A DNA stretch of 32,591 nt, taken from contig JAHCMM010000293.1 of NCBI GenBank assembly GCA_019192515.1, forward strand, positions 6,277 to 38,867, in the 5' to 3' direction. The number at the start of each line of letters is the position of its first letter. The stretch's first letter is position 1. Shown piece by piece: positions 1,333 through 8,510 of this stretch. The notes below the pieces were generated by a model. That model saw only the letters and a program-made list of their open reading frames with translations, was not told the DNA's origin and searched no databases. Origin of the DNA: Cyclobacteriaceae bacterium SS2 (GTDB lineage Bacteria > Bacteroidota > Bacteroidia > Cytophagales > Cyclobacteriaceae). The position numbers and the translations under genes were made by a program.

Positions 1333-1376
1333 AGTAAAATTTGGTAGTAAAAATTAGAAAATCAGGTAGTTTGAAA

Positions 1377-1448
1377 TACGCAATGGGTATATGAATTAGA
1401 AGTATCCTTTCATGAGGAATGATGGAATATGTGGAATAATATTGCGTA
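1377..1448 (-). promoter_or_regulatory. Inverted repeat in the hisG 5' region
   Basis: The arms TACGCAAT (1377-1384) and ATTGCGTA (1441-1448) are exact 8-bp reverse complements separated by 56 bp. In the hisG transcript the upstream arm would cover codons 3-5 of the candidate leader peptide. Translation of the leader could therefore compete with pairing. The mechanism is inferred; the repeat itself is directly visible. Confidence 0.4.
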
Positions 1449-1454
1449 GTTCAT
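1410..1454 (-). CDS. Candidate his leader peptide (14 codons)
   Basis: This short ORF upstream of hisG reads MNYAILFHIFHHSS and then TGA. Three of its 14 codons are His (positions 8, 11 and 12, two of them adjacent). It ends 77 nt before hisG and precedes the first gene of a histidine operon, the expected setting for an attenuation leader. A perfect 8-bp inverted repeat has one arm inside the ORF (1441-1448) and the other downstream (1377-1384). Against it: no terminator hairpin with a T-run is visible before hisG, there is no clear ribosome site, and the best promoter box sits only 5 bp upstream, which would make the message nearly leaderless. The function is inferred from position and composition only. 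Confidence 0.4.
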   Translation of the reverse strand: MNYAILFHIFHHSS

Positions 1455-1458
1455 CCCT

Positions 1459-1466
1459 CAAAGTTA
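1459..1466 (-). promoter_or_regulatory. Candidate -7 box of the his operon
   Basis: Read on the minus strand this is TAACTTTG, an exact match to the Bacteroidetes -7 consensus TAnnTTTG. A TTTG lies 23 bp further upstream, slightly beyond the usual 19-21 bp spacing. A perfect 10-bp palindrome, AGGAATTCCT (1470-1479), lies between the two elements and could be an operator or chance. Confidence 0.4.
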
Positions 1467-1516
1467 AAGAGGAATTCCTATTTTCCGAACAAATTTTTAC
1501 TGGTAAAGCCGATTTA

Positions 1517-3340: not shown

Positions 3341-5131
3341 TCACATACGAGTAGGTACGTCGATACCCAGTAAGCTCATCGATTGTTTGATGATCCGGGC
3401 AGTGACACCAGAAAGGATCACCCTCATTCTCAGAAGGTTTTCATCCGATTCATTGAAGATCGACACTTCCTGGTAAAATCCGTTGTATTCTTTGGCCAGA
3501 TCATAGATATATTGAGCCACCAGGTATGGCGCATACTCCTCAGCTGCCTGCTGTATAGCCTTAGGGAACTGGCTGATCTTGTAGATGAGCATCAGTTCAC
3601 GCTCGTGCAACGACCCCACCTCACCGGGTCTAAAGTCCATTGGGGTACCTATTTCTTTGGCTCGTCTCAGAATGGCAGAGATCCTGGCGTGTGTATATTG
3701 AATGAATGGCCCCGTGTTTCCCTGAAACTCGATGGACTCCTGGGGATTGAATAGCATCCTTTTCTTTGGATCTACCTTCAATAGGAAGTACTTCAAGGCC
3801 CCTAAGCCGAGCGTTTTATATAATTGCTGTGCCTCACCATCGGAAAGCCCTTCTATCTTACCCAGCTCCTCAGTTTGCTTTTGTGCCGTCTGAAACATCT
3901 CCTCCATCAGGTCATCTGCGTCCACCACAGTGCCCTCACGCGATTTCATTTTGCCAGTTGGCAGATCTACCATACCATATGAGAGGTGAAAAAGACCATC
4001 AGCATAGGGTTTCCCCAACTTCTCCATGATCTTGAAGAGCACCTTGAAGTGATAGTCCTGTTCGTTACCCACCACGTATACTGACTTATCAAATGGGAAA
4101 TCATCATGCTTCATTTCGCAGGTACCAATATCCTGCGTTACATAGACAGACGTACCATCACTTCTTAAGAGCAGTTTCTCATCCAGTTTATCGGCTGTCA
4201 GGTCAATCCAAACTGACCCGTCTTCTTTGGTAAAGAAAATCTTTTTGTCCAGTCCCTCCTTCACGATATCCTTTCCCAATACGTAGGTGTCAGATTCGTA
4301 ATACATCTTATCGAAGGAGATGCCCATGGTTTGATAGGATTGCTCAAACCCATCAAACACCCACTGATTGAGCTTCTTCCAAAGCGCAACCACTTCAGCG
4401 TCGCCCTCTTCCCACTTTCGAAGAAGCTCCTGAGCTTCCAGGATGGAAGGGGCAATTTTCTTAGCCTCCTCAGGGTCGGTGCCCTGCTCTACCAGCTTTA
4501 CAATTTCTTCTTTGTAGACCTGATCAAACCTGACATAATACTTTCCAATCAGGTGGTCCCCTTTCAACCCGGAGCTCTCCGGAGTTTCCCCACCACCATA
4601 TTTAGAATAAGCCAGCATGGACTTGCAGATGTGTATTCCCCGGTCATTGATCAGGTTTACCTTCATCACCTCGTAGCCATATGCTTCCAGGATCCTGGAT
4701 ACGGAATCACCCAGGAAATTATTTCTCAGGTGCCCAAGGTGCAATGGCTTGTTGGTATTTGGAGATGAAAATTCCACCATTACCTTTTCCCCATTGGATG
4801 GAAATACACCAAAATCAAGGTCTAGATTGATCTTGGTCAACTGCTGTGTCCAGATACGATCCTCAAGGGTAAGATTCAAAAAACCCTTTACTACCTGATA
4901 GGTCCTGATCATTTCAGAGTGAACCTTCAAATACTCTCCCAGCATTTTGGCAGATTCTTCAGGATTCTTTTTCGTGATCTTCAGGAAAGGAAAGACGACC
5001 AGGGTGTGTGTACCTTCAAACTCCCTCCTGGTGGGCTGTAGCTGCACCTCCCCTATTTCCGGTTGGTAGTCAAAAAGTGATTTAAATGCCTTGATAATCT
5101 CCCCCTGGAGCAATTGATCTATTTCAAACAT
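3341..5131 (-). CDS. argS: Arginyl-tRNA synthetase
   Basis: This class I aminoacyl-tRNA synthetase charges tRNA-Arg. At 596 residues it has the normal family layout: an N-terminal ArgRS additional domain (about 1-110), a Rossmann catalytic core with the HIGH motif as HLGHLRN (131-137) after the signature FSSPNTNKPL, a KMSKS-like loop written GKMKSREG, and a C-terminal DALR anticodon-binding domain that ends SLLGIDVPTRM. The start overlaps the end of the CtlX-like gene by 8 bp and its stop is one base from menA, so the genes are co-transcribed. The overlap with a guanidino-group enzyme is notable because both may act on arginine or its derivatives. Confidence 0.97.
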   Translation of the reverse strand: MFEIDQLLQGEIIKAFKSLFDYQPEIGEVQLQPTRREFEGTHTLVVFPFLKITKKNPEESAKMLGEYLKVHSEMIRTYQVVKGFLNLTLEDRIWTQQLTKINLDLDFGVFPSNGEKVMVEFSSPNTNKPLHLGHLRNNFLGDSVSRILEAYGYEVMKVNLINDRGIHICKSMLAYSKYGGGETPESSGLKGDHLIGKYYVRFDQVYKEEIVKLVEQGTDPEEAKKIAPSILEAQELLRKWEEGDAEVVALWKKLNQWVFDGFEQSYQTMGISFDKMYYESDTYVLGKDIVKEGLDKKIFFTKEDGSVWIDLTADKLDEKLLLRSDGTSVYVTQDIGTCEMKHDDFPFDKSVYVVGNEQDYHFKVLFKIMEKLGKPYADGLFHLSYGMVDLPTGKMKSREGTVVDADDLMEEMFQTAQKQTEELGKIEGLSDGEAQQLYKTLGLGALKYFLLKVDPKKRMLFNPQESIEFQGNTGPFIQYTHARISAILRRAKEIGTPMDFRPGEVGSLHERELMLIYKISQFPKAIQQAAEEYAPYLVAQYIYDLAKEYNGFYQEVSIFNESDENLLRMRVILSGVTARIIKQSMSLLGIDVPTRM

Positions 5132-6068
5132 GATCTTTTTTTCGTAAAAATATTTCCGCCATCATACACCTGGCACTACCTCCTCCGTAGTGTTCGATCG
5201 TATTCAATGGCGAATGTATGATCTCCCCGTTTTTTTCTAAAGCTTTCTGCTGATTTTGATCCAGTGATGCGTAAGCCCTTCCGGACATCACGATAAACCT
5301 ATCACCCCGATCGTTGCACACCTGCAAGCCATTTCCCGCAAAGCTATTCACTTGTTTCTCAGTAATGGCAATAATTTCCTTTCTTGAAGCTTTTAATGAA
5401 GACACTACAGCTTCTCGCTCCACCGCATCATCAATACTGTCCAGGCATATTACAGCAAATCCTTCTCCCACGTACATCATCACATTGGTATGATAGACAG
5501 GCATACGCTTACCGTTTACTGAATGGTTGGCGCGAAAGGTAATGGTCCGATATCCTGACTTTTCTTCAAAATCTTTGATCACAGGAATATGTGCACGATC
5601 AGACAAAGCCACATACGCAATCTTTTGGAGTCGCTCAAAAACCAGGCTTCCGGTACCCTCCAGAAAGTGTCCTTTATCTTCCCAGGACTCCAGTCGTATC
5701 AATTCAGATACCTCGTACGACTGGTCGATTTGATTGATCACAGCATCCCTTCTCTCCAGCCTTCGATTTTCGGCAAACATGGGATAGGTGTATATCTTCC
5801 CGCTTTGATGAAAAGAGATCCAGTTGTTGGGGAAAATGGCATCAGGAGTTTCAGGATGGTCCGAATCTTCAATGACTATCACTTCAATTCCCTTTGCCAG
5901 CAGTTTTTCAACAAACAGATCAAATTCCCTGAGTGCTTCCTTTTGAATTTCTGCAACTGATAGTTTTCCACCCAGATTCTGAAAATAGTTATTTACCGCA
6001 GTCTGGGCATTGCCCTGAAAATTCCTGGGCCGCACCATCAACAATGTGTTTGTGACCTGGCTATTCAT
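5124..6068 (-). CDS. ctlX: CtlX-like amidinohydrolase (arginine deiminase-related)
   Basis: This is a 314-residue cytosolic enzyme of the guanidino-group modifying superfamily (pentein fold), closest by eye to the citrulline-utilisation hydrolase type (CtlX). Family marks are an N-terminal MVRPRNF, PDAIFPNNW at residues 75-83, EGTGS at 137-141, the catalytic His in VYHTNVMM (H193), and the catalytic Cys in GGGSARCMM (C301), 14 residues from the end. All expected catalytic positions are present, so it should be active. CtlX in Francisella has been described as a citrulline ureidase; whether this protein uses citrulline, arginine or another ureido or guanidino compound is not decidable here. 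It overlaps the upstream gene by 8 bp and argS by 8 bp. Confidence 0.85.
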   Translation of the reverse strand: MNSQVTNTLLMVRPRNFQGNAQTAVNNYFQNLGGKLSVAEIQKEALREFDLFVEKLLAKGIEVIVIEDSDHPETPDAIFPNNWISFHQSGKIYTYPMFAENRRLERRDAVINQIDQSYEVSELIRLESWEDKGHFLEGTGSLVFERLQKIAYVALSDRAHIPVIKDFEEKSGYRTITFRANHSVNGKRMPVYHTNVMMYVGEGFAVICLDSIDDAVEREAVVSSLKASRKEIIAITEKQVNSFAGNGLQVCNDRGDRFIVMSGRAYASLDQNQQKALEKNGEIIHSPLNTIEHYGGGSARCMMAEIFLRKKDHV

Positions 6069-6981
6069 ATCTGCGTCTTAATGGGAGTGTGCTACATCTC
6101 AACAGTCCTTCCATTTTGGCTGCTTCGGCATAGGGTACTTCTTCTACTGTAAAGTCACGCTTCCGCAACTCATCATTCAGACGGGTAAAATTCTTTTCAG
6201 AAATGATCACATCAGGAGAAATAGAAAAAATATTGCTGTTCATGTGATACATCTCTTCTTTATCTATCAAGATAACATTTTGTTCGCCAAACATATTGAT
6301 CAGAAAGTCAGCATCTTCCCGATGTTTAAAACCATCCGGATAAATAATGGCCTGGTCATGGCCTATCGGCTGAAAACAGCAATCAAGGTGCAGGCTGTTT
6401 TCTCTGGGGTCAGTATCCGATTTATTGAGCTCAAATCCATATATTTTCCAATCCGGAAAGGATTTTTCCAGGTATTCCAACCCGGCTACATTCGTACGGG
6501 CAGTGATATACTCATCAAAGTCTTCTTTTTCTGAATACCCAACAAAGATCTTTCCTTTCCAGGGCATCACATCACCGCCCTCCATGCGTTCATACTCGTT
6601 GGGACGAAGTACTTTATTGGGATCGCATTGATCAATGATATACTGAATTCCCCTGATCTCTTCCCGTCTGTTGTGGGCGATATAAGGCACAATGATCTGA
6701 TCTCCTATGACCAACCCGACGTCCCTGGAAAAGATTTGGTTGTAGTTGCCAATGACCTGTGGACGGAAGACTTCCACATCATATTTTTTAAAAACCTGGT
6801 TTACAGCTTCCAACTCTACAAGCAGGTCTGACTCAACAGGAAATGTCCCATTGAGGATATTTTCAACAGATTTTGGATCATTGGTATTGCTTAGCTCCGG
6901 TGTACCACCAAAACTCTCCGCTGTTCCCAATATAACTGCCTCCAGTGGAGCAGTTTCATCATAAATTCCTAGTTTTATCAT
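6061..6981 (-). CDS. Guanidino-group amidinohydrolase or amidinotransferase
   Basis: This is a second pentein-fold guanidino enzyme, 306 residues from the ATG at 6981. The frame is open further upstream to 7077, but those extra 32 codons have no family resemblance and would contain the promoter box at 7000-7007, so the shorter start is preferred. Motifs in order: LEAVILGTAE (13-22), the RD pair (86-87), EGGD (134-137), HLDCCF with the catalytic His (H198), and CSTLPLRRRY with the catalytic Cys (C296). The EGGD/HLD/C-S-TLPLRR set fits arginine deiminase, dimethylarginine hydrolase and glycine amidinotransferase relatives alike, so the substrate is uncertain. It heads the operon with ctlX, argS and menA and faces a decarboxylase gene transcribed away from it. 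Confidence 0.8.
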   Translation of the reverse strand: MIKLGIYDETAPLEAVILGTAESFGGTPELSNTNDPKSVENILNGTFPVESDLLVELEAVNQVFKKYDVEVFRPQVIGNYNQIFSRDVGLVIGDQIIVPYIAHNRREEIRGIQYIIDQCDPNKVLRPNEYERMEGGDVMPWKGKIFVGYSEKEDFDEYITARTNVAGLEYLEKSFPDWKIYGFELNKSDTDPRENSLHLDCCFQPIGHDQAIIYPDGFKHREDADFLINMFGEQNVILIDKEEMYHMNSNIFSISPDVIISEKNFTRLNDELRKRDFTVEEVPYAEAAKMEGLLRCSTLPLRRRYE

Positions 6982-6999
6982 GTGATGTCCAGAAGGCTG

Positions 7000-7007
7000 C
7001 AAAATTA
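7000..7007 (-). promoter_or_regulatory. Candidate -7 box of the guanidino enzyme operon
   Basis: TAATTTTG on the minus strand exactly fits TAnnTTTG and lies 18 bp upstream of the ATG at 6981. No convincing -33 TTTG is seen at the usual distance. The position supports the shorter start for the downstream gene. Confidence 0.4.
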
Positions 7008-7115
7008 ATTGAATGTCAAATACTTCCCGGCATGGAATTATTACTATCCACGTTCTTGATTTGTTATATATTTTCACAAAATTGCGACATTGAAAAAATC
7101 CCAGAATTCGATTGA

Positions 7116-8510
7116 ATGAAAAGTTATAGTGACCTCATCGAGCAGACCTTCTATTTTCCAACCAAGGAGTTTAGAGTAGAAAATGACCAACTATTCTTCA
7201 ACAATGTAAACCTGATGAAAATCATCAAGGAATATGGGACTCCACTCAAGCTCACATATCTGCCTAAGATTTCGGAAAATATCCAGTATGCCAAGAAGAT
7301 ATTCAATGATGCTATCACGAAGCTGAACTACAAGGGATCCTATACTTACTGTTATTGCACCAAGTCGTCGCATTTTCAATTTGTCCTGGCTGAAGGGCTC
7401 AAAAACGACATTCATATTGAGACCTCTTCAGCGTTCGATATTCCTATCGTGGAAAGTCTGCTGGAGAGTGGTCACATCAAAAAAGACAAGTTCATCATCT
7501 GTAATGGATTTAAGCGCCCGCTATATCTTGAAAATATTACAGGACTGATCAACCAGGGATTCAAAAACTGTATCCCTATTCTGGACAACCTTACAGAGCT
7601 GGACTACTATGAGCAAAATGCTGAAAAGGATTTCAAAGTAGGTATTCGGGTAGCCGCTGATGAAGAACCGAATTTTGCCTTCTATACCTCCAGGCTAGGC
7701 ATCCGCTACGGTGATATCATACCTTTTTACAAGGAGCGGCTGGCAAAGAATAAGAAAGCCAAACTCAAAATGCTTCATTATTTTATCAATACCGGCATCA
7801 AGGATACGGCCTACTATTGGAGTGAATTGAGCAGGTTTATCTATATGTACTGTGAGCTGAAAAAGATCTGCCCGGATCTGGATACCATCGACATCGGTGG
7901 TGGCTTCCCAATCAAAAACTCACTGGCTTTTGAATATGACTATGCCTACATGGCAGAGCAGATTGTTTCCAATGTGCAGTGGATCTGCCATAAAAATCAT
8001 GTGGAAGTGCCAAACATCTTTACGGAATTTGGATCATTCACCGTGGGCGAGAGTGGCGCAATACTCTATTCGGTACTAAATGAAAAGCTTCAAAATGACA
8101 AAGAGCTCTGGTACATGATGGATGGTTCATTCATCACCCATATGCCTGATGTTTGGGGGCTCAATGAAAAATACATTTTGCTACCGGTCAACCACTGGGA
8201 CAACAATTTTCACAAGGTGAACATAGGAGGTCTTACCTGCGACAGCATGGACTACTATGACTCCGAAGCCCACATCGCTGAGGTTTTCCTTCCTAAATAC
8301 GATGAAGAAGAAACACTTTATTTCGGGTTTTTCCATACCGGGGCTTACCAGGAATCGTTAGGAGGGTACGGCGGAATTCAGCATTGCCTCATCCCGGCGC
8401 CCAAGCACGTGATTATTGACCTGGATGAGAATGGCGAACCTGTCCATAAACTATTCGCTGAAGAGCAAAACCACGAGCATATGATGAAGATTTTGGGGTA
8501 TAAACCTTAA
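7116..8510 (+). CDS. Arginine decarboxylase-like PLP enzyme (fold type III)
   Basis: This is a 464-residue PLP-dependent decarboxylase of the alanine racemase-fold group, most like a shortened biosynthetic arginine decarboxylase (SpeA) that would convert arginine to agmatine for polyamine synthesis. The PLP lysine is K83 in CYCTKSSH. The SpeA-type ICNGFK is at 128-133, the phosphate-binding glycines IDIGGGFP at 259-265, the catalytic Cys-Asp pair CDSMD at 375-379, and GAYQ at 409-412. Full SpeA proteins are about 630 residues; this one lacks the insertions and matches the shorter form common in Bacteroidetes. It is transcribed away from two guanidino-modifying enzymes and argS, which fits arginine use. 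No agmatinase is adjacent. Ornithine, lysine or carboxynorspermidine decarboxylase activity is less likely but not excluded. Confidence 0.82.
   Translation: MKSYSDLIEQTFYFPTKEFRVENDQLFFNNVNLMKIIKEYGTPLKLTYLPKISENIQYAKKIFNDAITKLNYKGSYTYCYCTKSSHFQFVLAEGLKNDIHIETSSAFDIPIVESLLESGHIKKDKFIICNGFKRPLYLENITGLINQGFKNCIPILDNLTELDYYEQNAEKDFKVGIRVAADEEPNFAFYTSRLGIRYGDIIPFYKERLAKNKKAKLKMLHYFINTGIKDTAYYWSELSRFIYMYCELKKICPDLDTIDIGGGFPIKNSLAFEYDYAYMAEQIVSNVQWICHKNHVEVPNIFTEFGSFTVGESGAILYSVLNEKLQNDKELWYMMDGSFITHMPDVWGLNEKYILLPVNHWDNNFHKVNIGGLTCDSMDYYDSEAHIAEVFLPKYDEEETLYFGFFHTGAYQESLGGYGGIQHCLIPAPKHVIIDLDENGEPVHKLFAEEQNHEHMMKILGYKP

Follow-up and report, generated by a model that had tools for sequence, protein, structure and literature searches.

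The hisG locus and its leader

The window, by which we mean the whole stretch of 32,591 nucleotides of DNA that was analyzed, carries on its minus strand hisG (475–1332), which certainly encodes ATP phosphoribosyltransferase in its long form (NCBIfam TIGR00070 and TIGR03455) and is the first gene of a hisG-hisD-hisC-hisB operon, the three genes that follow it on the contig being hisD, hisC, and hisB. The host genome is placed in Flammeovirgaceae/Cyclobacteriaceae, in the same genus as the MAG UBA7330, and a neighboring genus includes Marinoscillum furvescens. Judged solely by inspecting the translations, a series of arginine-related genes adjoins the his operon (3341–8510), comprising an argS-like gene, two amidinotransferase/deiminase-like genes, and a SpeA-like arginine decarboxylase.

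Upstream of hisG, on the same strand, direct reading gives a histidine leader peptide ORF, MNYAILFHIFHHSS* (1410–1454), with the codons ATG AAC TAC GCA ATA TTA TTC CAC ATA TTC CAT CAT TCC TCA TGA and with homologous ORFs in relatives. As an earlier, sequence-only reading of this DNA had reported, the ORF has 14 codons, three of them for histidine, and 77 nt separate its stop codon from the hisG ATG (1332). The histidines are specified by codon 8 (1433–1431) and codons 11 and 12 (1424–1419), which delimit a His-codon region at 1419–1433 on the minus strand; a count of only three is among the lowest found in the relatives of this leader.

Immediately ahead of the leader stands the −7 box TAACTTTG (1459–1466, minus strand), an exact match to the Bacteroidota sigma-A type TAnnTTTG, which ends four bases before the ATG rather than 5 bp upstream of it as had been counted. 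A possible −33 element, TTG (1490–1492, minus strand), is weak, with a spacing to the −7 box of 23 that is long against the usual 19–21 in relatives, and it is absent in the sister species; among relatives, a TTG lies 17–23 nt upstream of the box in 71 of 92 box-bearing leaders. In Flavobacterium psychrophilum the sigma-A box occupies −12 to −5 relative to the start site (PMC9723704), and the predicted +1 in the window is therefore the A of the leader ATG (1454, minus strand). The promoter and LEADERLESSNESS, in which the box abuts the leader ATG, predict a leaderless RNA. This had been suggested before, as a nearly leaderless transcript, and the position of the box agrees with the predicted 5′ end: 77 of 110 leaders (70%) have it 2–12 nt ahead of their ATG, versus 0.9% in shuffles. 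Considering that leaderless mRNAs are only 3.7% of mRNAs in Bacteroides thetaiotaomicron (5′ UTR < 10 nt; PMC7366714) and 5.5% in F. psychrophilum (PMC9723704), this layout belongs to the leader and not to the phylum at large. No second TAnnTTTG box is visible, by reading the sequence, between leader and hisG.

Pairing elements between leader and hisG

The inverted repeat that had been noticed, with one arm in the ORF and one downstream, is exact over 8 bp (TACGCAAT, 1448–1441, with ATTGCGTA, 1384–1377), and the helix is longer than stated: UGAA-C-UACGCAAU pairs with AUUGCGUA-U-UUCA (1453–1441 with 1384–1372) to give 12 pairs (8 + 4) around one C·U mismatch, taking in the leader start codon. 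Arm 1, TGAACTACGCAAT (1441–1453, minus strand), thus runs from the start codon to codon 5, and arm 2, ATTGCGTATTTCA (1372–1384, minus strand), has its 3′ end 39 nt ahead of the hisG ATG. An equally good match arose in 1 of 2,000 dinucleotide shuffles of the intercistronic region. A second element, the stop-codon hairpin TCCT-CATGAA-AGGA (1405–1418, minus strand), is a predicted fold, weak in the window and strong in relatives. From arm 2 to hisG extends a G-poor tract (1333–1371, minus strand) with one G in 39 positions; the G content of this tract is 2.1% in the clade versus 16.9% upstream of 25 window genes, and we infer that it is the hisG ribosome loading region and possibly a rut-like sequence.

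The genus has one other species (L002), whose HisG is 95% identical, and the changes between the two are unevenly spread. All four changes in the leader ORF are synonymous (P = 0.00125 under random substitution), neither arm has changed at any of its 13 positions, the G-poor tract differs at 1 of 39, and the spacer from the stop codon to arm 2 (1385–1409) differs at 18 of 25. By these counts the peptide, both arms, and the G-poor tract are constrained and the spacer is not; the substitutions show purifying selection acting on the leader between these two species.

Conservation and co-evolution in relatives

The hisG upstream regions were sampled from relatives and across the phylum, giving 164 distinct regions. 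An ATG ORF of 7–55 codons with at least three His codons is present in 134 of them (82%) versus 5.9% of shuffles, the leader being picked automatically among overlapping ATGs, with some assignments doubtful (e.g., L034 and L137). These leader-bearing regions come almost throughout from Bacteroidota. A His ORF with TTTG no more than 12 nt from its ATG occurs in 55% of regions and in 0.37% of shuffles. The peptides range from MIHHHSI in Bacteroidales through MNYVVKHHHHHHHHCA in the genus of Marinoscillum to forms of 27 codons that end in HHFHHSS.

The arms change between genera yet stay paired, as in UAUGAAUUAC/GUAAUUCAUA (L031), UGAGUAUAGCAA/UUGCUAUACUUA (L037), and UGAAGUUGCUCAU/AUGAGCUAUUUCA (L038). 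In the window clade, matched arms beat mismatched ones over 11 groups (permutation p = 5e-6); the same test gives p = 1.7e-6 over 109 leaders and p = 0.006 over 49 other terminator-less leaders, all with genera taken as independent despite shared ancestry, a bias that the strong divergence of the arms limits and does not remove. The stop-codon hairpin co-evolves as well, with p = 0.0035 in the clade and none of 20,000 permutations as good in the other terminator-less leaders. A duplex-energy scan over a wide stretch of the leader lacked specificity (12 of 110 below z = −2); the arm signal emerged after restriction to the ORF start, with swapped arms as control. The comparison with relatives that the sequence-only reading had proposed thus returned both a conserved His ORF and covarying arms.

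Several lineages carry elements of their own. At the loci with 27-codon leaders (L044, L056, L115, and others), a nearly invariant ACATATCGCCC lies ~15 nt past the stop-codon hairpin, and several relatives have a similar CATAT(C/T)GCC within their leader ORF; ACATATCGCCC may mark a pause site or pair with GGCUGUUGAUAU. The same 27-codon-leader loci have a third arm, ACAGCC, able to compete with the leader-start AACAGCC for GGCUGUU, which suggests a true three-arm switch there. In the window clade, a search for a third arm that would compete for arm 2 gave none (p = 0.48), whereas the 27-codon-leader relatives have GGCUGU...ACAGCC. A perfect Shine–Dalgarno-like AAGGAGG sits within the stop-codon hairpin of L006, L008, L046, and others, in a phylum that mostly does without its use.

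Two architectures

An intrinsic terminator lies between leader and hisG in 39 of 134 leaders, versus 1 of 134 in shuffles, and leaders of this type belong to Flavobacteriales, Bacteroidales, and some Cytophagales. The end of their ORF and the 5′ terminator arm co-evolve, a pairing that was equaled in none of 20,000 permutations (e.g., CUCAAGCG with CGUUUGAG), and on this comparative evidence the pairing is the classical antiterminator; co-evolution of their start-codon arm is marginal (p = 0.07). The type reaches its smallest form in some Bacteroidales (L077, L078, L079, L081, and L085), in which the minimal seven-codon leader MIHHHSI is followed by an intrinsic terminator before hisG.

In the window clade and most sampled Cyclobacteriaceae the terminator is absent. 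That no obvious T-run terminator precedes hisG had been remarked from the outset, and two scans of the interval between leader and hisG indeed found no intrinsic terminator; none was found in the first 420 nt of hisG either. For the ORF end, no co-evolving partner lies downstream (clade, p = 0.08; other terminator-less leaders, p = 0.98). On the HisG tree, the terminator label changes 5 times versus ~26 in shuffles, with the root uncertain and support patchy.

The same genome carries a trp leader, MLRKNTYWYWHFTHSNKM, upstream of trpE (L188, G000:C111), five nt after a TAGTTTAG box and followed, before trpE, by the strong intrinsic terminator CCCGCTGTTCGCAGCGGGTTTTTTT (CCCGCTG-TTCG-CAGCGGG-T7); the absence of a terminator is therefore specific to his. 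The two leaders are alike in that the ORF comes right behind a −7-like box, and the trp leader also has an arm, ACATAC, near its start with the complement GTATGT after its stop; it differs from the his leader in having kept a strong intrinsic terminator. The sister species and a number of related genera have the trp leader and its terminator as well. At a further locus (L201, G000:C111:7544-7731), the trp terminator is separated from the start codon of trpE by an insert of ~190 nt that the sister species lacks. Since four more sites of the genome hold partial copies, the insert looks like a mobile repeat that shifted the trpE start.

Proposed mechanism

Three general features of attenuation are found together at this locus: a His-codon ORF precedes the operon, it is kept as coding, and an RNA pairing overlaps it. 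Conservation of the ORF, co-evolution of the arms, and purifying selection strongly support what the sequence-only reading had at its core, a His leader peptide and a pairing switch before hisG. On this comparative basis, a real histidine-sensing leader before hisG, a variant of ribosome-mediated attenuation, is very probable. Our main reading, to which we give a probability of about 75%, is that the leader peptide attenuates the hisGDCB operon in response to histidine and does so without an intrinsic terminator.

We propose that transcription would start at the leader ATG and that the first ribosome would load on the 5′-terminal AUG, as the promoter suggests. When charged tRNA-His is short, this ribosome would wait at the first His codon (codon 8), where it would cover about RNA nt 4–33, that is, arm 1, and keep the RNA open. 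When histidine is plentiful, the ribosome would finish and leave, and arm 1, with the start codon, would then pair with arm 2, hiding the 5′ AUG and stopping further initiation on the leader, while the hairpin would close over the stop codon. Co-evolution shows both helices to exist, and their timing is what we infer. Up to this point, the steps jointly command high confidence.

What follows is more tentative. In the closed state fewer polymerases would reach hisG, transcription being cut short, probably by Rho, within a leader that is untranslated, rich in C, and poor in G, and a stalled ribosome would hold the leader open and prevent this early end. Premature, probably Rho-dependent, termination is favored as the output, if at somewhat less than even odds, because homologous leaders are transcription attenuators, no occlusion of the ribosome-binding site was observed, each of the six genomes examined has rho (TIGR00767), and the leader is C-rich. 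Of the 122 nt of its RNA, 28 are C and 8 are G, which is within the top 2% of window stretches; the His codons impose part of this composition, and the hint that it gives for Rho is weak. Rut sites allow no call from sequence in Bacteroidota, and since the G-poor tract is single-stranded in both states, structure alone predicts no state-dependent loading of Rho.

Alternative explanations

The same sensor and switch could instead act on translation of hisG, where the sequence-only reading had suggested that control might lie. Unpairing of arm 2 would lengthen the single-stranded stretch ahead of hisG from 39 to ~77 nt and so offer a better standby or S1 loading site, and the closed helix would end that stretch at −39. 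In most of the clade arm 2 does end 29–45 nt ahead of the hisG ATG, near the edge of an initiating ribosome, and the 39-nt tract is almost invariant and nearly G-free; we nevertheless regard a translational output as rather unlikely. No partner for the hisG start region co-evolves with it in leader or intercistronic segments (p 0.18–0.99; in the clade, p = 0.25 for the ORF and 0.96 for the intercistronic region), and folding with a stalled ribosome and folding without one predict equal accessibility for the hisG start region (0.584 vs. 0.578, p = 0.65), which leaves the earlier suggestion unsupported, with the proviso that a longer single-stranded standby region would escape both of these tests. 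Occlusion of the ribosome-binding site by the leader, as in translational attenuators of the erm type, was rejected as a general feature by the stalled-ribosome folding and the pairing permutation. It is also conceivable, if improbable, that a ribosome stalled near the 5′ end mainly shields the mRNA from decay, in which case the half-life of hisG mRNA and not its synthesis would be regulated. Stalled ribosomes near 5′ ends do make mRNA more stable in other bacteria, and the leader is predicted to lie at the extreme 5′ end; the closed state, however, pairs that end, which usually protects RNA.

Attenuation by termination might, of course, be classical after all, with an intrinsic terminator that was missed as an atypical hairpin or one within hisG. 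Sister lineages have a terminator at his, and the same genome has one for trp, but neither the two scans nor the search of the first 420 nt of hisG found any, the ORF end has no co-evolving partner downstream, and the absence extends over the clade and is clustered on the tree (5 changes vs. 26 in shuffles), all of which makes a missed terminator quite improbable. Very little, in turn, speaks for a decayed remnant that lost its terminator and whose leader and arms now regulate nothing: the leader has fewer His codons than its relatives and no output element was found, yet the ORF has changed only synonymously (P = 0.00125), the arms show 0 changes in 26 positions against 18 in 25 for the spacer, and the arms co-evolve across genera. 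As for a chance ORF beside a chance repeat, the features are short and a count of three His codons among 14 is in itself nothing rare, but the frequencies of the His ORF (5.9% of shuffles vs. 82% observed) and of the ORF with its TTTG (0.37% vs. 55%) leave coincidence with a negligible share, and conservation already refutes it.

Relation to known systems

Leader-peptide attenuation of the his operon is textbook knowledge in enteric bacteria. The enterobacterial hisL (RF00514) resembles the window leader in its His-rich peptide before hisG, in the ribosome position on the His codons as sensor, and in its alternative pairings; the window differs in having neither an intrinsic terminator nor an antiterminator, in a leader that is predicted to be leaderless, and in the use of the leader start codon as a pairing arm. 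The system tnaC is a Rho-dependent leader-peptide system, and tnaC-type systems would share ribosome-controlled access of Rho with the his leader if the termination step proposed here, with its probable role for Rho, is right. An Rfam scan of the window gave no match at gathering thresholds, His_leader (RF00514) and T-box included, and below threshold a single unrelated match on the other strand; a scan of the his loci of 13 relatives gave no match. In a literature search with most subscription journals outside its reach, we found no His leader described in Cyclobacteriaceae and no terminator-less form.

Closer relatives of the window leader are found within the phylum. A structured 5′ element without an Rfam family was reported upstream of hisG in F. 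psychrophilum and other Flavobacteriaceae (PMC9723704), and attenuation by His leaders in Bacteroidota had hitherto only been hinted at by the structured 5′ elements of F. psychrophilum. The Flavobacteriaceae element, here of the terminator type (L161–L176), agrees with the window in phylum, gene, His leader, and a promoter near the ATG, and has an intrinsic terminator and an ORF-end antiterminator where the window has neither. Outside the phylum, the mycobacterial polycysteine attenuators, as far as they are summarized in a later paper, are leaderless short ORFs that attenuate downstream translation (Canestrari et al., 2020, cited in PMC9031893). By that summary they share with the window leader a short ORF, leaderless there and predicted to be so here, repeated codons for the regulated amino acid ahead of biosynthetic genes, and, on the model proposed here, control of downstream genes through the speed of elongation, and they differ in phylum, in responding to cysteine, and in acting on downstream translation, whereas the window shows no occlusion of the hisG start.

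Implications

With less than even confidence, we put forward a regulatory helix that would join the 5′-terminal start codon of a leader to a site ~40 nt before the structural gene, a leader ribosome, translating or stalled, and the closed RNA being mutually exclusive, with neither a terminator nor occlusion of the downstream ribosome-binding site; such a helix may have replaced an ancestral terminator in much of Cyclobacteriaceae, where trp kept its own. The architecture of the window leader is shared by a relative that can be cultured, Marinoscillum furvescens DSM 4134 (locus L058/L003). More broadly, His leader attenuation appears to be phylum-wide, built on leader ORFs that are predicted to be leaderless, and to come in two architectures, one apparently classical with a terminator and one without. 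The second architecture asks what replaces the terminator in a bacterium that uses intrinsic terminators elsewhere.
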